49,894 nt of DNA from Defluviicoccus sp. Lineage in GTDB: Bacteria > Pseudomonadota > Alphaproteobacteria > MPNO01. Within the stretch, counting starts at the first letter, position 1. Every line of letters starts with the position of its first letter. Position numbers and translations under genes: made by a program. Below are positions 25,253 to 36,636 of this stretch, in pieces. The notes beneath the pieces were generated by a model. It did no database searches. It was not told the origin of the DNA and saw nothing but the letters and a program-made list of their open reading frames with translations. The stretch spans positions 1-49,894 of the forward strand of contig JAJEHI010000045.1 of NCBI GenBank assembly GCA_022823775.1, written 5' to 3'.

Positions 25253-27679
25253 TTAAGAATCGCTGTCAACAATGATGGTGTCGGCGGGTAAATCCGTGGC
25301 GGGCGGGCGGTAGCGGCGGATCGCGGCGCGGGCGGCGGCGTGGAGTATGGCGTCGACGTCGATGCGGTAGGCGGCGTGGAGGTCGGGGATGTCGCCCGAC
25401 TGGCCGAAGCTGTCGACGCCGAGCGGGTAGATGCGGTGGCCGGCGACCGAGCCGAGCCAGGAGAGCGCCGCCGGGTGGCCGTCGAGCACGGTGACGATCG
25501 CGGCGTCGGGGGCGAGCCGGGCGAGCAGCCGCTCGATCGCGGCGGTGCGGGCGGAATCGCCCGCTACCCGGGCCTGGCGGGCGCGGAGCCAGTCCTCGTG
25601 GAGGCGGTCGGGCGAGGTGATGGCCAGCAGCCCGACATCGGGAATATCCTCGCGCAGCGCATCGACCGCCGCCTCGGCCTCGGGGACCATCGCCCCCATA
25701 TAGGCCACCGCGAGCGGCGCGCCGTCGCAGGAAGGTCCGGCCCGCCAGTAGGCGCCCCGGATCGCGCCGGCGCGCCAGTCCTCCTCCCCGCGCCCGGCGG
25801 GCTGCGAAATGGCGCGGGTCGACAGCCTGAGCGCCACCGAGCCGCCGTCGTCGGCCTGCATGTGGCGAAACCCCCATGCCACGATCTCGGCGAGCTCGTC
25901 GACGAAGGCGGGCTCGAAGGCCGCGAGCCCGGCCTGGCCGAGCGTGATCAGCGGAGTCTCCTGCGACTGGTGCGCCCCGCCCTCGGGCGCGAGCGTGACG
26001 CCGGACGGCGTTGCCGCCAGCATGAACCGCGCGTCCTGGTAGCAGGCGTAGTGCAGCGCATCGAGGCCGCGCCGGATGAACGGGTCGTATAGCGTGCCGA
26101 TGGGCAGCAGCCGCTCGCCGAAGACCGGCCCGGCGAGCCCGAAGGCGGACAGCGTCAGGAACAGGTTGTTCTCCGCGATGCCGAGCTCGACATGCTGGCC
26201 GCCGGGCGACATGACCCAGCGCTGCGGCGACAGCACGTCCTCCTCGGCATAGGTGTCGGCGGCCTCGTCGCGGCTGAAGATGCCGCGCCGGTTGACCCAC
26301 GCACCGAGATTGGTCGAGACCGCGACGTCGGGCGAGGTGGTGACGATGCGGTCGGCGAGCTCACCCCCTCCCCGCGCGATGTCGCTCAGGATCCGGCCGA
26401 ACCCGTCCTGGGTCGAGATCGTCGCCCGGTCCGGCGGGTCGATCCGTTCGGGCACCGCGATCCGCGCCGCCGCGTGGCGCCTCGGATAGGCGGAGGCGAA
26501 CGGCACCCCGGCGAGGAACGCCTCCAGCTCGTCTTCCGGGATGTCTAGCCCGGCGAAGCGGTCCCACTCCTCGCCCGGCGCGACCCCCATTTCGGCCCGG
26601 AAAGTCTCCATCTGGTCGGGCGTCATCAGCCCGGCATGATTGTCCTTGTGCCCGGCGAAGGGGAGCCCGTAGCCCTTGGTGGTGTAGCAGATCAGGCAGG
26701 TCGGCCGGTCGTCGCGGATGCCGTGGAACGCGTCGAGCAGCACGTCGATGTCGTTGCCGGCGAGGTTGGTCATCAGCGCGTGCAGCGCCGTATCGTCGCG
26801 CCGGTCGAGGAGCGCGCGCGCCTCCGCCTCGCCGCCGATGTCGTGCGCCAGCCGCTCGCGCCAGCCCGGCCCGCCCTTGTAGGTGAGCGCGGAATAGAGC
26901 GAGTTCGGGCAGTCGTCGATCCAGCGCCGCAGCGCCTCCCCGCCGGGCTCGGCGAAGGCGGCCTCCTGCAGGCGGCCGTATTTGAGCGTCAGCACCCGCC
27001 AGCCGACCGAGCGGAACAGCTCGTCGATGCGCCCGAACAGCCGGTCCGAGACCACCGAATCGAGGCTCTGGCGATTATAGTCGACCACCCACCAGAGATT
27101 GCGCACGTCGTGCTTCCAGCTCTCCAGCAGGGCCTCGAACACGTTGCCCTCGTCGAGCTCGGCATCGCCCACCAGCGCGATCATGCGCCCCGCGGAGTCC
27201 GGGTCGATCGTCCCCTTGCAGGCGAGATAGTCCTGGACCAGCGCGGCGAACACGGTCTGCGCCGCGCCGAGCCCGACCGAGCCGGTGGAGAAATCGACGT
27301 CGTCGTCGTCCTTGGTGCGCGACGGGTAGGATTGCGCCCCGCCGAGGCTGCGGAAGCGTTCGAGCCGTTCCCGGCTCTCGCGTCCGAAGAGATACTGGAT
27401 GGCGTGGAAGACCGGCGCCGCGTGGGGCTTCACCGCCACCCGGTCCTCCGGCCTCAGCACGTCGAAATAGAGCGCCGTCATGATCGCCGTCAGGGACGAG
27501 CACGAGGCCTGGTGCCCGCCCACCTTGAGCCCGTCGCGGCTCGGCCTCAGATGGTTGGCGTTGTGGATCGTCCAGGCCGACAGCCAGAGCAGCTTGCGTT
27601 CGAGCGCGGCGAGAATCGCGCGGCGCCGGGCCGGCGGGCTCTCGCGCTCCAACGCGATCTCGGCAGGCAGGCTGGACAT
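25253..27679 (-). CDS. Homodimeric pyruvate dehydrogenase E1-like (AceE/MdeB-type) enzyme
   Basis: This 808-residue protein resembles the homodimeric 2-oxo acid dehydrogenase E1 and transketolase fold. N-terminal NANHLRPSRDGLKVGGHQAS and the thiamine-diphosphate motif GDAELDEGN (171-179) to YNRQSLD (201-207) are clear. A pyrimidine domain with AEEDVLSPQRWVMSPGGQHVELGIAENN follows, with a transketolase-like C-terminal domain after about residue 640. AceE itself is near 887 residues. No E2 or E3 gene is nearby, so it may serve the main complex or act on another 2-oxo acid such as 2-oxobutyrate. It is divergent from an Lrp-type regulator, as is known for mdeB-like genes; that analogy is inference. 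Confidence 0.83.
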   Translation of the reverse strand: MSSLPAEIALERESPPARRRAILAALERKLLWLSAWTIHNANHLRPSRDGLKVGGHQASCSSLTAIMTALYFDVLRPEDRVAVKPHAAPVFHAIQYLFGRESRERLERFRSLGGAQSYPSRTKDDDDVDFSTGSVGLGAAQTVFAALVQDYLACKGTIDPDSAGRMIALVGDAELDEGNVFEALLESWKHDVRNLWWVVDYNRQSLDSVVSDRLFGRIDELFRSVGWRVLTLKYGRLQEAAFAEPGGEALRRWIDDCPNSLYSALTYKGGPGWRERLAHDIGGEAEARALLDRRDDTALHALMTNLAGNDIDVLLDAFHGIRDDRPTCLICYTTKGYGLPFAGHKDNHAGLMTPDQMETFRAEMGVAPGEEWDRFAGLDIPEDELEAFLAGVPFASAYPRRHAAARIAVPERIDPPDRATISTQDGFGRILSDIARGGGELADRIVTTSPDVAVSTNLGAWVNRRGIFSRDEAADTYAEEDVLSPQRWVMSPGGQHVELGIAENNLFLTLSAFGLAGPVFGERLLPIGTLYDPFIRRGLDALHYACYQDARFMLAATPSGVTLAPEGGAHQSQETPLITLGQAGLAAFEPAFVDELAEIVAWGFRHMQADDGGSVALRLSTRAISQPAGRGEEDWRAGAIRGAYWRAGPSCDGAPLAVAYMGAMVPEAEAAVDALREDIPDVGLLAITSPDRLHEDWLRARQARVAGDSARTAAIERLLARLAPDAAIVTVLDGHPAALSWLGSVAGHRIYPLGVDSFGQSGDIPDLHAAYRIDVDAILHAAARAAIRRYRPPATDLPADTIIVDSDS

Positions 27680-27804: not shown

Positions 27805-28272
27805 CTGCCAATCACGGACCTCGACGCGATCGACCGCCGCATCCTGACCGAGCTCCAGGGCAACGCGCGGATTTCCAACGCCGAGCTCGCGGAAGCGGTC
27901 GGGCTCTCCCCCTCCCCCTGCCTGCGCCGGGTGCGCGCGCTGGAGGCGGCGGGCGTGATCAAGGGCTACGCGGCGCTGCTCGACGCCGCCGAGGTCGGGC
28001 TGCCGATCTCGGTCTTCGTGCAGGTGACGCTGGAACGCCAGATCGAGCGGGCGCTGGAGGCTTTCGAGACCGCGATCCAGGGCCGCCCCGAGGTGATGGA
28101 GTGCTACCTGATGACCGGCGACGCGGACTACCTGCTCCGCGTCGTGGTGTCCGACCTCGCGGCCTACGAGCGTTTCCTCAAGGAGCACCTGACTCGGGTG
28201 AGCGGCGTTTCCAGCATCAAGTCGAGCTTCGCGCTCAACCAGGTGAAGTACTCGACGGCGCTGCCGTTGTAG
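27805..28272 (+). CDS. Lrp/AsnC-family regulator, probable CTG start
   Basis: This 155-residue protein has the Lrp N-terminal helix-turn-helix (DLDAIDRRILTELQGNAR, then SNAELAEAVGLSPSPCLRRV) and the RAM ligand domain with [18 protein letters not shown]. The reading frame contains no ATG, GTG or TTG upstream of the helix-turn-helix. The first conventional codon, GTG at 27931, would delete half of it. A CTG at 27805 is preceded by GGAGA at good spacing, so I choose it. It is divergent from the E1-like gene, its likely target. Its last 245 bases are repeated at 29875-30121. Confidence 0.88.
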   Translation: MPITDLDAIDRRILTELQGNARISNAELAEAVGLSPSPCLRRVRALEAAGVIKGYAALLDAAEVGLPISVFVQVTLERQIERALEAFETAIQGRPEVMECYLMTGDADYLLRVVVSDLAAYERFLKEHLTRVSGVSSIKSSFALNQVKYSTALPL

Positions 28273-28274
28273 GG
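28028..28274 (+). repeat. Direct repeat, copy A (3' part of the intact lrp gene)
   Basis: These 247 bases recur at 29875-30121, offset 1847, with eight differences. All eight fall at third codon positions and leave the protein unchanged. The two copies flank the DUF2806 gene and a dehydrogenase gene fragment. Confidence 0.95.
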
Positions 28275-28478
28275 GGAGCTAGCCCCGAGTCCTAGGCGGC
28301 ACCACTTCCCTAATTGTGATGGTCCAGCGCTTTTCCACAATATAGCCGAATATTCCCTTGGTGATTCGTTCCTTCTTCCGATATTTCCGGAAACTTGGTC
28401 ATTGAGATGAAGTGAAAAGCCAAGGCCTGCATCGAGTGAACAACAGCGCTGACGAGAATAGTCGTCACGAGGTCCACC

Positions 28479-29531
28479 ATGGAAGACGATAAAGATCTGC
28501 AGTCCAGCGACTCCGATCACGAATTTGAAGCTCAAGCGTTATTGATCGTTCGGAAAATTATTCCTGTTCTACGGACCGCTAAAAACACCGCGAAGGTCCT
28601 GAACCGGCTTTCTTCGGTTGGTGTGCAAACTCTCGAAGCCGCTCTCGAAGCTGGAACATCTTGGTTCCAGCTGAAGAAAGCCCGCAACGAACATTTCATA
28701 CACCAGCTTGCCGAGATTTCGCCGGGTCGGTCAGCTATTGGAGCAAAGGTGGCCGAGCGACTGGTTGAGGAACAGCGCCGTATGGATCAATTGGTATTTG
28801 CAGCAATAGAACGTGTCCAGGCCTCTAGTGGCCCCGCTTCTTCTGGCGAAGGAAATATTGGCAAGGAGACGAACGAAATAGATGACGATTGGATTGAAAG
28901 CTTTAGGAGAGAAGCAACTGATCGAAATCAAGGCGAGATGAGAGAAGCCTTCGCGAGAATCTTGGCTGGAGAGATTTCCGAACCCGGATCGTTTTCAATT
29001 AGGACTTTACGTGCCGTCGGCGCTCTCGACCAATCCACTGCTACTCTGTTCCGCAAGGCGGCATCGCTTCGAGTGGGTATGGAAGTTGCGATTACAAATC
29101 CTCGTTCCGGATCACGTTTTCATGTATTTGATGCCCGCATCCCGTCGCTTGGGGGAAATTTGGGACAAAATCATCTTCAAGAAGACGGTCTAGATTATGG
29201 ACGCCTCATCGAACTAACAGAAAACGGCCTGCTCCATTCTGACTATAGTTCTTGGCACATCTACAATTCAGCAATGCCAAATCCGACAATTGGTCTCAAA
29301 GGAGGGGTCGTCCCTTTTGTTCATCAAGGCCAGGAATGGGCCTTGATTCCGATGCCGACTTTCAAGGCGGGATCTGAGTTGAAGATACACGGCGCCAAAT
29401 TTACTACGGTTGGCCAGGAACTTCTTCATATCGTGGACATCGAAAGTAATCTCGCGTTCTTGGGCAAAGTTCGCGCGTATCTCAAGGGCCAAGGGATTGA
29501 GATGCTCTCGCTGCCGTCGGATCAGACGTAA
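28479..29531 (+). CDS. DUF2806-domain protein, G+C-poor
   Basis: This 350-residue protein lacks signal peptide and membrane helices. An N-terminal helical part (to about 135) precedes a region DDDWIESFRREATDRNQGEMREAFARILAGEISEPGSFSIRTLRAVGAL, quoted here only by its ends as residues 135-180, which matches the DUF2806 pattern; the rest is mixed alpha/beta. Function is unknown. Base composition is clearly lower in G+C than every neighbour and codon use is different, a sign of transfer. GAGGTCC precedes the ATG. It stands alone between the two lrp-tail copies. Confidence 0.7.
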   Translation: MEDDKDLQSSDSDHEFEAQALLIVRKIIPVLRTAKNTAKVLNRLSSVGVQTLEAALEAGTSWFQLKKARNEHFIHQLAEISPGRSAIGAKVAERLVEEQRRMDQLVFAAIERVQASSGPASSGEGNIGKETNEIDDDWIESFRREATDRNQGEMREAFARILAGEISEPGSFSIRTLRAVGALDQSTATLFRKAASLRVGMEVAITNPRSGSRFHVFDARIPSLGGNLGQNHLQEDGLDYGRLIELTENGLLHSDYSSWHIYNSAMPNPTIGLKGGVVPFVHQGQEWALIPMPTFKAGSELKIHGAKFTTVGQELLHIVDIESNLAFLGKVRAYLKGQGIEMLSLPSDQT

Positions 29532-29593
29532 GAGCCCTTGAGTGTACAGATAGGGTAATTGCCTGACAGTTGCCGCTCATGGCGGGTGGTGGT

Positions 29594-29839
29594 TCAGGCG
29601 GCTTTCTTGATCTTGTCCTCCTTTGGTCTCTTGGGCTTGGGCAGGCATCGTACGAAGACGTCGGCGGGTGTCCTGCCCTCCATGTCGAGGCCCTGGCTGA
29701 CGCCGTCGGCCACGACGTCCGGGTAAACGTGCTCCTCGGCGGCCTCCACGGAATAGAGTGCGGCGTTGGCGACGTCGGCGGGGTCTTCCAGTGGCGGCGG
29801 GCACATGTCGCCCATGCGGGTGTCTCTCGTTGGGCCGGG
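29594..29839 (-). pseudogene. Remnant of a short-chain dehydrogenase gene (C-terminal part)
   Basis: The minus strand encodes about 82 residues including [20 protein letters not shown] and DGVSQGL. These correspond closely to residues 175-230 of the intact dehydrogenase at 35056-35781 ([27 protein letters not shown]). The end differs, with a Lys-rich tail. The frame is open only to a TAG near 29870, and no cofactor-binding half exists, so it is a fragment joined within 36 bases to the lrp fragment. Confidence 0.75.
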
Positions 29840-29874
29840 GTTGTATTCGTGGACTCGCTCCGAACGAACCTATT

Positions 29875-30119
29875 CGCTGGAACGCCAGATCGAGCGGGCG
29901 CTGGAGGCTTTCGAGACCGCGATCCAGGGCCGCCCCGAGGTGATGGAGTGCTATCTGATGACCGGTGATGCGGACTACCTGCTCCGCGTCGTGGTCTCCG
30001 ACCTCGCGGCCTATGAGCGTTTCCTCAAGGAGCACCTGACCCGGGTGAGCGGCGTTTCCAGCATCAAGTCGAGCTTCGCGCTGAACCAGGTGAAGTATTC
30101 GACGGCGCTGCCGTTGTAG
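29875..30119 (+). pseudogene. 3' fragment of an lrp gene (RAM domain only)
   Basis: The last 81 codons of lrp are present, with identical amino acids to the intact copy ([12 protein letters not shown] to STALPL). The helix-turn-helix half is missing. The sequence is preserved but has no start or promoter of its own. Confidence 0.85.
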
Positions 30120-30121
30120 GG
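29875..30121 (+). repeat. Direct repeat, copy B (lrp 3' fragment)
   Basis: This is the partner of 28028-28274, about 96.8 percent identical. All eight differences are synonymous, so this copy diverged while still under selection as a working gene, which points to an origin in another strain's lrp. Confidence 0.95.
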
Positions 30122-30163: not shown

Positions 30164-31435
30164 TCAGATGAACTCCAGTATCCAGAGAGACAGTCCGGGC
30201 ACGTAGGTGATCAGCATCAGCGCCCCTATGGCAAGCGCGATGAACGGCATCAGACCCGGATAAAGCGTTGCCAGGGGCACGCGGAAGACCGCTTGGCCGA
30301 CGAAGATGTTGAGGCCGAATGGCGGCGTGAAGGTCCCGATGGTGAGGTTCACGACGGCGACGATGCCGAAATGGACCGGGTGGACGCCGACCGCGAGCGC
30401 GATGTCGGCGAGCAGGGGTGTCAGCACGAGGATCGCCGAGGCGGTGTCGAGCACCGTGCCGACGAACAGCATGAACAGATTGAGGACCAGCAGCAGCATC
30501 CATTGAGGCATGCCGAGCCCGGCGATGTAGTCGGTCGCGGCCGTGGCGACGCCGGTCACGGTCAGAAGCCAGGAATAGACGCCCGCGGCCGCGACGATGA
30601 TGAAGACCTGGCCGGTGAGGAAGGCGGAATTGGCCGCGGTCCGGAACAGCTCGCCCGGCGCGATCTCCCGATACACCGCCATGGTCACGAATATGGCGTA
30701 GACGCAGGCGACGCCCGCGGCTTCGGTCGGCGAGAACACCCCGGCGTAGATGCCGCCCAGGATGATCACCGGGGCTCCGAGGGCCCAACCGGACCGGGCG
30801 GTGGCCCGCCGGAAGCCCCGCCAGGTGACAGCGCCGACCGTCGGGACGCCGGTCCGGCCGACGTAAAAGTAGATGTAGGTCCCGAAAGCGGCGGCGAGCA
30901 CGAGACCCGGCACGATCCCGGCGGCGAAGAGCTGGACGACCGAGGTCTCGGTCGCGAAGCCGTAGAGGATCATGGCGATCGAGGGCGGGATGATGTTGGC
31001 GATGGCCCCCGCCGAGGTCAGCATGCCGGAGGCGAACCGCGCGTCGTAGCCCGCTTCGCGGAGCGGCTTGTAGGTCAGTGTGCCCACCGCGGCGACGGTG
31101 GCGCCCGTCGATCCCGAGATCGCGCCGAATATCGTCGCCGTCCCCAGCGCGGTGAGCGGCAGGCTACCGCGGACGCCGCCGATGATCGAGTACACCCAGT
31201 CGATCAGCCGGGCCGATACCCCGCCCCGGGTCATCAGGTCGCCGGCGAATATGAAGAACGGCACGGCGAGCAGCGCGAACTTGTCGATCGAGGCGAACAT
31301 CTGCTGATGGATCAGCGTCGTCGGCACGTCGACGAAGAAGATCAGCACGATCGCGGATGTGGTCAGAAGGATCAGGAATATCGGAAAGCCGAGCAGCAGC
31401 AGCGCCACCGGCAGGCCGACCATCACCCACGCCAC
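30164..31435 (-). CDS. TRAP transporter large permease (DctM family)
   Basis: This 423-residue protein has about 12 hydrophobic helices and the DctM signatures FGAISGSTGATVAAVGTL, GAIANIIPPSIAMILYG, and IGTFTPPFGLNIFV. It forms the sodium-driven channel of a tripartite carboxylate importer. The GTG at 31435 is chosen because AGGAGGA stands 7 bases upstream; the later ATG at 31423 is poorly spaced. The gene overlaps the end of the DctQ gene, so the two are translationally coupled. It ends the dctP-dctQ-dctM transcript. Confidence 0.94.
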   Translation of the reverse strand: MAWVMVGLPVALLLLGFPIFLILLTTSAIVLIFFVDVPTTLIHQQMFASIDKFALLAVPFFIFAGDLMTRGGVSARLIDWVYSIIGGVRGSLPLTALGTATIFGAISGSTGATVAAVGTLTYKPLREAGYDARFASGMLTSAGAIANIIPPSIAMILYGFATETSVVQLFAAGIVPGLVLAAAFGTYIYFYVGRTGVPTVGAVTWRGFRRATARSGWALGAPVIILGGIYAGVFSPTEAAGVACVYAIFVTMAVYREIAPGELFRTAANSAFLTGQVFIIVAAAGVYSWLLTVTGVATAATDYIAGLGMPQWMLLLVLNLFMLFVGTVLDTASAILVLTPLLADIALAVGVHPVHFGIVAVVNLTIGTFTPPFGLNIFVGQAVFRVPLATLYPGLMPFIALAIGALMLITYVPGLSLWILEFI

Positions 31436-31971
31436 GTCTCGTCCTCCTCGTTCTGCGGCGGAGCACGGAACCCCGTAAGGACGCGCGCCAGCACGGCGAC
31501 GATCATCAACGCGAAACCGATCAGCAGGACGGTGTGCGGTACGACCAGCGGCACGCCCGCGGCGATGCTGACCGTGCCGGTCCGGTGGAATGCGGCGACC
31601 ATCTCGACCGACTGGGCGACCACGAAGCCGCAACAGGCGACGAAGACCAGCACGATCGCGCCGTCGATCAGGCGCCTCAACCTGCCGCGGGCCCGCGCGA
31701 GCAGGAGGTCCATGCTGAGATGGGCGCCGTTGAAGCTGACCGCGACGGCGGAGACCGCGACCAGCCCGACCACCATGAAGATCAGGATCTCCTCGGCCCA
31801 GAATATCGCCGCGGAGAACAGATACCGGCTGACCACGTTGGCGAAGATGATCGCGACGCCGGCGAGGATCAGGGCGCCGGCGATCGCCCTCGGGGCCGAG
31901 TCGAGCGCGGTGGAAAGGACACGGCGACACCGTTCCCCGCCCGATTGCGCACCCGGCTCCCGCCCGGTCAT
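31423..31971 (-). CDS. TRAP transporter small permease (DctQ family)
   Basis: This 182-residue protein has four membrane helices and the DctQ-type motif NVVSRYLFSAAIFWAEEILIF-like region, here residues about 44-65, with the conserved WAEE. It pairs with the DctM protein, whose start overlaps its 3' end. It lies 78 bases downstream of the DctP gene on the same strand. Confidence 0.92.
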   Translation of the reverse strand: MTGREPGAQSGGERCRRVLSTALDSAPRAIAGALILAGVAIIFANVVSRYLFSAAIFWAEEILIFMVVGLVAVSAVAVSFNGAHLSMDLLLARARGRLRRLIDGAIVLVFVACCGFVVAQSVEMVAAFHRTGTVSIAAGVPLVVPHTVLLIGFALMIVAVLARVLTGFRAPPQNEEDETWRG

Positions 31972-32049
31972 CGCCGCGTCGCTACCCGCGTGTCGCGTGA
32001 GGGAAGCGGACGACGCGCGGCCCTATGCACCGCGCGCCGTTCGTCCCGA

Positions 32050-33069
32050 TCAATACTTGGCGGCGACCGACTTCACCCGCTTGTAAAACGCGTTGAGCGC
32101 CGGCTTGCCCTTGGTGACGTCTTCCCCGACGCTGGCCAGCAGGCTGCGAACCTTGGCGAGATCCTCGTCCGGAAGCGCGATGAGAGAACCGCCGCCCTCC
32201 TTCCATTTCGCCAGCATCGCCTGCTCGTTGGTGTCCGAATATTCGTTGGCGCGTTGCTGCAGCCCGACGCCGGCATCGATCACCACCTTTTGCAGATCCG
32301 CCGGGAGCTTGCCGAGCCAGGCCTTGCTGACGATGCCGGCCGACAGGATCAGCGTGTCGTCGGTCCGGGTCAGCACCTTGCCGATCTGGTTGAACTTGAA
32401 GACCACGTAGACGACCATTCCGCTCATCGTGCCGTCGATCACGCCGCGCTGCAGCGAGGGCACGACTTCGGAAAGCGGCATGGGGACGGCGGTCGCGCCG
32501 AAGCGCTTCATCTTCTCGCGCTCCGCGTCGGTCGCGTTGACGCGCAGTTTCAGCCCGCCGAAATCGGCAAGCCTGCGGATCGGCTTCTTGCCGAAATAGT
32601 GCGCCGTGGAATGGGTGAACACGGATACCGGAACGATGTTGCCGCGCTCGGTTCCGATCGACCGGATCTCCTTGTTGAGTTCCGGATCGAGAAGCGCCTT
32701 GGCGGCATTCGTCTTGTTCTTGAACAGCACCGGCGTCGAGAAAATGCCGAAGCGCGGGTCGATACCCGCATAGAAATCCATCGGCGCGACGAGACATTCG
32801 ATGGTGCCGATCTGGACGCCCTCGACCATGCGGAAAATATTGCCGAGCTGGCTGCGCGGGAACACCTGTACGTCGATGCGGCCCTTCGAGTCCGCCTCGA
32901 TTTTCTTCTCCATCCAGTTCGCCCATTCGTGCTGGACATCCTTGAAGGTGCCGAGCCCGATCTTCATCGTGAAGTCGGCGGCCGACGCGCCGCCCGCCAG
33001 GAGCGCCAGAATCGTCGCGGCGGCGAGGCCGCCTCCAAGGCGCGGATGTATCTTCCGGATTCTCGTCAT
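32050..33069 (-). CDS. TRAP transporter substrate-binding protein (DctP family)
   Basis: This 339-residue protein has a signal peptide (LGGGLAAATILALLAG, cut near ASA-AD) followed by the DctP fold. Family features include VFPRSQLGNIFRMVEGVQIG, the substrate-gripping Arg region GLKLRVNATDAER, and PMPLSEVVPSLQRGVIDGT. It captures an organic acid in the periplasm for the DctQM pair downstream. The ATG at 33069 has GGGAGG upstream. The promoter should lie in the 33070-33270 stretch. Confidence 0.94.
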   Translation of the reverse strand: MTRIRKIHPRLGGGLAAATILALLAGGASAADFTMKIGLGTFKDVQHEWANWMEKKIEADSKGRIDVQVFPRSQLGNIFRMVEGVQIGTIECLVAPMDFYAGIDPRFGIFSTPVLFKNKTNAAKALLDPELNKEIRSIGTERGNIVPVSVFTHSTAHYFGKKPIRRLADFGGLKLRVNATDAEREKMKRFGATAVPMPLSEVVPSLQRGVIDGTMSGMVVYVVFKFNQIGKVLTRTDDTLILSAGIVSKAWLGKLPADLQKVVIDAGVGLQQRANEYSDTNEQAMLAKWKEGGGSLIALPDEDLAKVRSLLASVGEDVTKGKPALNAFYKRVKSVAAKY

Positions 33070-33274
33070 TTCGTTGCCTCCCAATTTCGGCCGGGGGGAC
33101 CGGGACCGTTTCGGATTCCGGTCGCCCGACCGGGTCTCGCCCACGGGTAAGCATGACGCAAGGCTTGCTTTCGGTATAGGGCGCGATCGGAAGCCGGAAC
33201 CCGGCGCCCGGACCGCACACGCGGAATTCGTCCTTGCGCTTGCCGTCGGCCGCCGCATCGGAGTCGGCGCCATG

Positions 33275-33359: not shown

Positions 33360-33653
33360 CTAAACTTGCGGGGGATGGATCAGCGAACTCACGTCCCGCC
33401 AAAACTTGTCGAAGGACGCTGCTGACCGGGCCGCATCCAGATCGAAAATGGCGGAGAACGAGGCTTGGTGGATCGTTTCCCGGTATGACTGGCCGGGCGG
33501 CATCGTGGCGGTCAGCCAGCCTTTCGCGTCCCTGATCGCCTCGGCGTCGTCGGGCGGTTCGATGCCCTCGCCGATCCCGAGGGACATGGGGGCCGGCCAA
33601 CGACCCGCGCCCACGCCGGTTTCAGTATGGCCTCTCTCCAGCTTCGGAGCCAA
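33360..33653 (-). CDS. Possible small hypothetical protein or gene remnant
   Basis: A 97-residue minus-strand frame with fairly natural composition in its second half (TMPPGQSYRETIHQASFSAI, then FDKFWRDVSSLI). No family is recognised, the ribosome binding site is weak, and the first 25 residues look like noncoding sequence. It lies in an 800-base stretch (33070-33880) that also holds a dehydrogenase gene fragment, so it may be the end of another broken gene. Nothing else is supported between 33070 and 33360. Confidence 0.3.
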   Translation of the reverse strand: MAPKLERGHTETGVGAGRWPAPMSLGIGEGIEPPDDAEAIRDAKGWLTATMPPGQSYRETIHQASFSAIFDLDAARSAASFDKFWRDVSSLIHPPQV

Positions 33654-35055: not shown

Positions 35056-35781
35056 CTACCCCGGCAGATACGCCGCGAACTCCTTCTCCACCGCTTTCGC
35101 ATCGGCGGCGAGGCCCTGGCTGACTCCTTCGGCCATGACGCCGGGGTAGATGTCCTCCTCTCCCGCCTCGACGGCGTCGAGGGCGGCGTTGGCGACGTCG
35201 GCGGGGTCTTCCAGCGGCGGCGGGTTCATGTCGCCCATGCGGGTGTTTATCGCGCCGGGCATGACGGCGACCGTCAGCGTGCCCTGCGCCGCGAGTTCGG
35301 CGCGCACCCCCTGGGTAAGCGACAGGGCCGCGGCCTTGGATCCGCAGTAGGTGCCGATCATGGGCAGGTTTACCCGGCTCAGCAGCGACAGCATGTTGAC
35401 GATGGCGCCGCCGCCGTTGGCGGCCAGCACCGGGCCGAACCGGCGGCACATCTCCATGGTGCCGAAATAGTTGACCTCCATCTCGTCGCGCGCGTTCCTC
35501 AGGGCGTCGTCGTCGGAGATCGGGCGGTTGCGGTTCACGCCGGCATTGTTGATCAGCAGGGTGACGTCGCCGCACTCGGCCGCCGCCTCCGCGATCCGGC
35601 CGTGGTCGGTCACGTCGAGCGCGAGCGGCCTGACCCGGCCGTCCGGTGCCTCGTAGCCGTCGGTGGAACGCATGGCGGCATAGATTTTCGCCGCGCCGCG
35701 GTCGAGCAGGACCCGGACGAAGGCTTCGCCGACCCCCCGGTTGGCGCCGGTCACCAGCGCCACGCTGTCCTTTACGTTCAT
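35056..35781 (-). CDS. Short-chain dehydrogenase/reductase (internal start within the longer frame)
   Basis: These 241 residues make a complete classical SDR: cofactor motif TGANRGVG (11-18), NNAG (78-81) and catalytic Tyr145-x-x-x-Lys149 in TYCGSKAAAL. The ATG at 35781 has its own Shine-Dalgarno, GGGAGAAGAG, about 6 bases upstream, so independent translation is likely although the ATPase frame enters without a stop. It would oxidise or reduce an alcohol or ketone with NAD(P). Fragments of the same C-terminus occur at 29594-29839 and 33778-33888. Confidence 0.87.
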   Translation of the reverse strand: MNVKDSVALVTGANRGVGEAFVRVLLDRGAAKIYAAMRSTDGYEAPDGRVRPLALDVTDHGRIAEAAAECGDVTLLINNAGVNRNRPISDDDALRNARDEMEVNYFGTMEMCRRFGPVLAANGGGAIVNMLSLLSRVNLPMIGTYCGSKAAALSLTQGVRAELAAQGTLTVAVMPGAINTRMGDMNPPPLEDPADVANAALDAVEAGEEDIYPGVMAEGVSQGLAADAKAVEKEFAAYLPG

Positions 35782-36636
35782 GCTCAGCTCTTCTCCCAGT
35801 TGGTTGTCCGCCGTCCGGGCGACCCAGCCCGGATCGACATCGGGCAGCGGAATCGCGTTCAGCAGCCGTCGGGTGTAGGGGTGGCGAGGCGATGCGAAGA
35901 TCGCGGCGCATTCGCCCTGTTCCACCGCCCGGCCGTTCAGCATCACCATGACCCGGTCGCACACGGTGCGGACGACCGAAAGATCATGGCTGATGAACAG
36001 GAGCGCAAGGCCGAGATCCCGCCGCAATTCCCGCAGCAGCGCCAGGATCTGGGCCTGGCTCGACATGTCGAGACCGGAGACGATCTCGTCGGCGACGACC
36101 AGCCGGGGCCGCAGGGCGATGGCCCGCGCGATACCGATGCGCTGGCGCTCGCCGCCCGATAGCTCGTGGGGATATCGCTCGCCGTGGGCCGGCCGCAGCG
36201 CGACCCGTTCGAGCAGCGCGTCGACCTGGCGCCGCGCCTCGGCCCGCGTCGCTGCCCGGCCGTGGAGGTGCAGCGGCTGGGCGACGATGTCGGCCACCCG
36301 GCGGCGCGGGTTGAGCGAGGATTGCGGGTCCTGGAAGATCATCTGGAACTGGGCGCGCAGCGGGCGCAGCCGCTCTTCCGTCAGGTTCGCGATGTCCCGC
36401 CCGTCGAACAGCAGGCGGCCCGCGGTCGGGCGGTGGAGGCGGACCAGGGTGCGTCCCAGGCTGGTCTTGCCCGAGCCGCTCTCGCCGACGACGCCCAGCG
36501 TATCGCCCGGCGCGATCGCGAGGTCGATGCCGTGCAGGATATCGACCGGCGGGGCCGGGCCGAAGGGCGGCTTGCGGCTGTAATCCGGCAGCGAGAGGCG
36601 CAGGCCGGCGGCTTCCAGCAGGACGGACTCAGCCAT
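35056..36636 (-). CDS. Oligopeptide/dipeptide ABC transporter ATPase (OppF/DppF type), in frame with an SDR
   Basis: The first 285 residues are an OppF/DppF-type ATPase: Walker A GESGSGKT (51-58), Q-loop IFQDPQSSLNP, signature LSGGE (159-163), Walker B LVVADE (179-184) and the HPYTRRLL peptide-transporter segment (252-259). Family members usually continue to about 320 residues and stop. Here no stop occurs, and the frame runs on through the start of the short-chain dehydrogenase for a 526-residue total. The gene overlaps the OppD-type gene by 8 bases. Whether a fusion protein is made, or the dehydrogenase is translated from its own start, is unknown. Confidence 0.85.
   Translation of the reverse strand: MAESVLLEAAGLRLSLPDYSRKPPFGPAPPVDILHGIDLAIAPGDTLGVVGESGSGKTSLGRTLVRLHRPTAGRLLFDGRDIANLTEERLRPLRAQFQMIFQDPQSSLNPRRRVADIVAQPLHLHGRAATRAEARRQVDALLERVALRPAHGERYPHELSGGERQRIGIARAIALRPRLVVADEIVSGLDMSSQAQILALLRELRRDLGLALLFISHDLSVVRTVCDRVMVMLNGRAVEQGECAAIFASPRHPYTRRLLNAIPLPDVDPGWVARTADNQLGEELSMNVKDSVALVTGANRGVGEAFVRVLLDRGAAKIYAAMRSTDGYEAPDGRVRPLALDVTDHGRIAEAAAECGDVTLLINNAGVNRNRPISDDDALRNARDEMEVNYFGTMEMCRRFGPVLAANGGGAIVNMLSLLSRVNLPMIGTYCGSKAAALSLTQGVRAELAAQGTLTVAVMPGAINTRMGDMNPPPLEDPADVANAALDAVEAGEEDIYPGVMAEGVSQGLAADAKAVEKEFAAYLPG

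Follow-up and report, generated by a model that had tools for sequence, protein, structure and literature searches.

Foreign DNA has entered the lrp gene of a Defluviicoccus sp., a conclusion that was well supported by the window (the whole stretch of 49,894 nucleotides that was analysed) and by its relatives: a restored gene end, a displaced native end and an empty site in a relative were all present. It seemed that the incoming DNA was added inside lrp, mended the gene with its own end and moved the native end 1.85 kb downstream. Sequence comparison also showed that events of this kind recur at lrp across the genus with different cargo, which goes beyond the preliminary description of this DNA.

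The duplicated lrp end and its cargo

A repeat search of the window revealed two direct repeats of 247 bp, at 28028-28274 (copy U, the upstream lrp end) and 29875-30121 (copy D, the downstream end), with a spacing of 1847 and an identity of 97%. The features of the region are as follows.

25253-27679, minus strand: PDH-E1/transketolase-like gene, native left flank (Transketolase_N, E 1.1e-12)
27805-28272, plus strand: lrp, Lrp/AsnC family regulator (AsnC_trans_reg, E 3.3e-26 on 27931-28269)
28479-29531, plus strand: DUF2806 gene, 350 aa, low-GC cargo (Pfam PF10987, E 7.5e-21)
29541-29620, no strand assigned: 80-bp scrap, 81% similar by sequence match to G000:C17:13216-13294 and G002:C60:14108-14181
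29686-29829, minus strand: 144-bp SDR gene fragment near the far end of the cargo (85% to 35109-35252; 21 of 144 positions differ)
29875-30121, plus strand: displaced lrp 3′ end, copy D, from about residue 73 to the stop (repeat match), adjoining the TRAP operon
30164-33273, minus strand: TRAP transporter genes, native right flank common to G003 (DctM, E 2.8e-106; DctP, E 7.1e-52)
33360-33653, minus strand: HEC-01B gene remnant, C-terminal part (PADLOC HEC-01B, E 5.2e-20; 79% to residues 117-193 of the G002 gene)
35056-36636, minus strand: ABC ATPase and SDR in one frame, native, relative of the SDR fragment (adh_short, E 1.2e-32; ABC_tran, E 1e-28)

The window's genome (G000) was compared with four other genomes of the genus (G001-G004), all five being draft assemblies of 120-380 contigs each. 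The preliminary description had reported a copy of the lrp end downstream of the gene with silent third-position differences only, and this was confirmed by the repeat search and by alignment. The copies differ at eight positions (28107, 28119, 28122, 28149, 28167, 28194, 28236 and 28251), all silent and all at codon position 3. When differences of the same transition and transversion types were placed at random, all eight were silent in 26 of 400,000 trials. Read by eye in the alignment with G001-G004, the states at 28107, 28119, 28167 and 28251 are derived in D (that at 28251 is also found in G001a) and those at 28149 and 28194 in U, and polarity is ambiguous at 28122 and 28236. The four D-derived changes are all silent, as occurred by chance in 6,138 of 400,000 trials; thus, D most likely functioned as a gene end until recently.

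We found no match for a third copy of the repeat in the assembly. A misassembly through a repeat misjoin would not readily explain the arrangement, since unrelated sequences meet at the scrap/tail junction and the two tails have no exact run in common longer than 79 bp. As a chance background, 25 contigs or contig parts of the window's genome (not a random choice; 671,073 bases including the window) were compared with themselves. Outside the window, this gave five weaker repeats at 87-92% and a single direct repeat that reached 150 bp and 95% identity with its copies no more than 15 kb apart. The latter is a second duplicated gene end, at G000:C10:7145-7325/9045-9225 (L105), where the tail of an antitoxin gene, HigA-like by eye, is present twice over 181 bp, 1.9 kb apart. 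Three of its six differences are protein-changing, and a transposase-like fragment, recognized by eye, lies in between. With this second tail-like duplication in the genome, the process may not be peculiar to lrp.

The native surroundings of the gene could be read from the relatives. lrp is divergent to the PDH-E1-like gene in G002, G003, G004 and, among members of the order outside the genus, in the eight with an lrp ortholog fetched. The upstream lrp of the window had been called intact. It is indeed an open frame, but it reads ATC ACG in the 27805-27816 region where G002 and G003 have ATG; from this alignment, the gene has probably lost its ATG and starts with CTG at 27805, where G004 has GTG. 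An empty lrp site, sought in relatives, was found in G003, in which lrp runs directly into the TRAP operon that follows copy D in the window. Copy D with the TRAP region is 87.8% alike to G003, and both immediate flanks of the window's insert are as in G003: the homologous end was duplicated around the insert, and flank was not lost. Because D lies next to the TRAP operon, the position that lrp holds in G003, the native end that was displaced is most likely D, and U would have arrived with the cargo. The earlier view that the downstream copy had been a functional gene end stood, all changes being silent, but its arrival from elsewhere most likely did not. Nor was an lrp end from another known species supported: the identity between U and D is 96.7% and that of either copy to G002 and G003 is 91-93%, so the donor would have been close, either of the same species or of an unsampled sister. 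The TRAP operon matches on other contigs in G002 (C122) and G004 (C176). As it lies behind lrp in the window and G003 and elsewhere in G002 and G004, this operon may also have moved.

The cargo proved to be what had been proposed, a foreign-looking DUF2806 gene and a dehydrogenase fragment, the latter being the 144-bp SDR piece. The G+C content of 28275-29531 is 50%, compared with 66.8% for the whole window, and it is there that G+C in 1-kb windows reaches its minimum for the entire 50 kb. DUF2806 was present in one of 27 genomes of the order and in 14 of 385 genomes of the class (gene calling around the 13 class-level loci was too crude for use). Distant relatives occurred on six plasmid records, three of which were viewed and had the gene near recombinase, transposase or conjugation genes; none was confirmed in viral contigs, phage records or genome_contigs, the last searched by peptide pattern. 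The DUF2806 protein had no PADLOC match. A link to Abi_alpha appeared weakly in two of five relatives (E 0.015 and 0.092, below cut-off) and not in the window protein, and was not used. An AlphaFold model of the protein made without an alignment had a mean pLDDT of 45, too low for fold comparison.

The SDR fragment matches a stretch of the 35056-36636 frame, within its SDR half. It is more diverged than the lrp tails and so, on this comparison, need not come from the lrp donor. The 35056-36636 gene joins an ABC transporter ATPase and an SDR in one 526-aa frame, which is also found in G002 and G003; it is either a natural fusion or two neighbour genes without an intervening stop.

Displaced lrp ends in related genomes

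Displaced lrp ends or their remnants were found in four of the five genus genomes, around DUF2806, HEC-01 and HEPN-like modules; in G003, nhmmer detected no second lrp end. In G002, lrp is followed by an adjacent HEC-01B/HEC-01A pair and then by what is left of a decayed lrp end, 121 bp that carry an internal deletion (nhmmer E 1.7e-18). HEC-01A (L033:4411-5625, E 5.5e-158) and HEC-01B (L033:3833-4414, E 3.3e-70) have the layout of the HEC-01 candidate defence system, and the pair is the only content identified between lrp and the remnant.

The G001 contig starts with an lrp end, followed by a two-gene module, a second lrp end, HigBA and an Mrr-type IV restriction gene. The displaced end is about 158 bp long, and the two tails are 98.0% alike, differing at three of 142 sites, all silent. 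The lrp flank is off the contig, and the 5′ part of lrp was not found in the G001 assembly. One gene of the module looked HEPN-like by eye; at usual cut-offs, the module had no Pfam, NCBIfam or PADLOC match, and it gave one weak match to a PHROG of unknown function. The G004 order is lrp, a module of PD-Lambda-5_A-like, unknown and methylase genes, an N-terminal HEC-01A fragment, a HEPN-like module that is the G001 module (83% alike), and an lrp remnant. This remnant, read from the alignment, is about 30 bp long, was not reported by nhmmer, and lies just before a gene that G003 also has downstream. In the alignment, the junction in front of the tail is common to G001 and G004, and the insertion of the HEPN-like module thus appears older than their split. 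Overall, the arrangements point to at least two insertions at lrp in the genus, and probably three.

By family matches, the same core flank carries different defence families: HEC-01 in G002, mREase_IV (E 5.9e-71) in G001, a PD-Lambda-5_A-like gene (E 1.2e-21 over part of the protein) with a methylase in G004, and the HEC-01B remnant in the window. From these matches we infer a putative defence role for the cargo. No separate lrp end accompanies the Mrr and HigBA genes of G001 or the PD-Lambda-5-like module of G004, and these genes may have arrived by another route.

The pattern was also sought more widely. Among 80 lrp loci from genome_contigs, 68 of them with at least 2 kb downstream, none had a second tail, although this comparison would overlook a remnant no longer than the G004 one. 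One of these loci is G003; the rest have at most 82% protein identity and were therefore judged to lie outside the genus. In the class search, the tail was matched at E 1e-15 in 35 of 385 genomes, 34 besides the window's, and none of the 34 had two on one contig (two candidates were scored per genome). Likewise, in the search of 27 genomes of the order, none outside the genus had two lrp tails on one contig. No lrp hotspot of this type was present among the literature matches listed.

Possible routes of entry into lrp

We give about an even chance to insertion of a circularised donor fragment by a single crossover at lrp, which would serve as a landing site for accessory genes. The donor fragment would have started inside a close relative's lrp (about residue 73), continued through the stop and the DUF2806 gene, and ended in the scrap. 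Its ends would have been joined into a circle, and the circle would have entered the lrp tail through a single homologous crossover. The product would be an lrp with the donor tail, the cargo, the scrap abruptly joined to the start of a tail, the old tail and an untouched right flank. With homology that stops at the 3′ end of the gene, lrp would stay whole wherever the crossover fell; such insertions would be tolerated and so could recur. A circular intermediate and RecA would be involved. A search of six genomes detected no Ku gene, so the closure of the circle would need another route. At the scrap/tail junction (29874/29875), only 2 bp (CG) are in common by eye.

Recombinase integration at a gene 3′ end, of the type known from icd/e14 and phage 21, gives the same outward anatomy: the incoming DNA restores the end and displaces the native one, as at lrp, with silent differences and repeated accretion. 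Under this explanation, a tyrosine or serine recombinase, since lost or acting from elsewhere, used an att site inside lrp, and the element carried the mending lrp end; prophages in icd and integrase-less, cis-mobilised elements are models for it. The genomes are rich in integrases that could act from elsewhere (2-73 PF00589 matches in six genomes), and the starts of the G001 tail and of the G002 remnant lie close to one codon, within about 5 bp of each other (hmm positions 303 and 308), as a fixed crossover site would also predict. However, the window tail starts 89 bp further upstream, at hmm position 215 (residue 73, against about 103 in G001). None of the 137 PF00589 matches of G000, G001, G003 and G004 and none of the 23 resolvase matches of G000-G004 was on an lrp contig, only the HEC-01 pair was identified between the G002 lrp and its remnant, and six integrase frames (one probably spurious) had no tblastn match in the five lrp loci. 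An lrp relative was confirmed in no viral contig. A 9-bp inverted repeat with an 8-bp spacer (about 28119-28144), near the G001/G002 start, was considered as the att site and dropped; by eye it is disrupted in both G003 and G004, and the start of the window tail lies at a different place. Site-specific integration is thus possible but rather doubtful, and the fact that no recombinase was found at the sites, together with the differing tail starts, led us to favour circle insertion.

Tandem integrases were common in these genomes. Units of 2.4 kb, each a tandem pair of tyrosine recombinases (in L078 about 381 and 391 aa long), occurred in many copies per genome in G001-G004 (e.g. L077-L084; G003:C48:32366-33979), with a trio at G000:C106. 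G002 had 73 PF00589 matches in all and G003 had 60. In eight loci with differing surroundings the units were 73-88% alike. One locus had a 141-bp tandem repeat on one side and others had inverted repeats nearby, but no direct repeat flanked the unit in any of the eight. As far as seen, the units were unrelated to the lrp insertions, and they were rejected as their driver.

The remaining explanations do without a circle or a recombinase. Linear DNA could enter by homology-facilitated illegitimate recombination, in which one end crosses over and the other joins illegitimately inside lrp, so that the old tail remains. Differing tail starts and the scrap at the non-homologous end would fit, and the passages of PMC5361080 on Vibrio immunity-gene arrays with 3′ ends shifted back propose this process. 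We nevertheless consider it improbable here: according to the relevant parts of PMC3240628, such events generally lose recipient DNA and mostly use 3-10 bp of microhomology, against a duplication and about 2 bp at lrp, and the duplication PCR product of 56 of 60 candidate E. coli clones was ascribed there to circle insertion.

It is very unlikely that the lrp end was first duplicated locally and unrelated DNA then entered between the two copies. The preliminary description held that grouping of the two copies to the exclusion of other strains would favour such a duplication, and U and D are indeed closer to each other than to any other genome compared. The grouping is formally present, but the duplication does not follow from it: a passive local duplicate would seldom show four D-derived changes that are all silent, the eight differences together are silent as well, and two events would be needed, which would have to recur with new cargo in sister species. 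Least probable of all, in our view, is that D was kept by selection as a stand-alone ligand-binding domain, which would account for the silent changes with no recent displacement. AsnC_trans_reg is still recognized (E 7.3e-25) in an open frame of 117 aa at 29766-30119, and the second G001 tail is likewise undecayed. That match begins only at position 9 of a 73-position profile, which means that the domain lacks its start, and the equivalent copies have decayed in G002 and G004.

Comparison with known systems and implications

The closest likeness to circle insertion comes from E. coli. In the experiments of PMC3240628 that concern DNA ending in the lacZ 3′ end, lacZ-end duplications were detected by PCR in 56 of 60 clones; the 14 sequenced measured 109-950 bp and were explained by a circle missing part of the end and a single crossover. 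As at lrp (247 bp), a short gene end with a variable start was duplicated around foreign DNA, and a recombinase would not be needed. In contrast, the lacZ substrate was a laboratory plasmid, whereas the lrp insertions are natural, recurrent at one gene and carry accessory genes. The Vibrio T6SS immunity-gene arrays, as presented in the pertinent part of PMC5361080, also have modules added beside conserved genes, older 3′ parts pushed downstream and no integrase evidence. Their cargo is effector/immunity pairs, unlike the unrelated genes here, several of them phage-defence-like, which are anchored at a regulator gene. Pseudomonas aeruginosa cDHS1 and cDHS2, as far as PMC10250203 describes them in the sections concerned, share conserved flanks, varied defence content and no obvious single mobilising mechanism. 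They differ in having an RNA gene in both flanks; lrp has readable entry scars in the form of gene ends, and the nearest tRNA is about 3.3 kb away.

The prevalence of defence-like genes behind lrp might reflect selection on arrivals, which is our simplest guess. We also considered a further idea, which we regard as speculative and improbable, that the lrp 3′ end works as a cassette system free of any recombinase: with lrp ends on both sides of every insert, ordinary homologous recombination could release it as a circle with one lrp end. The tails of G001 are 98.0% alike though their junction seems older than the G001/G004 split, which hints that lrp copies do recombine. If the cassette idea were true, excised circles could enter any other cell of the genus with the gene end as attachment site, and strains would exchange defence genes much as integrons shuffle cassettes, but by host RecA.

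What appears new here is the repeated landing of foreign genes, several of them defence-like, behind lrp in a little-known genus. How core defence hotspots are assembled without an obvious mobilising element is a question left open in the part of PMC10250203 that addresses it. At lrp, the incoming DNA leaves a tag, a second end of the neighbour gene with silent differences, which tells in what order and direction the insertions came and how old they are relative to each other, and the same kind of tag could be sought at other hotspots. The lrp loci thus offer a readable record of how gene clusters may form without a dedicated integration enzyme.
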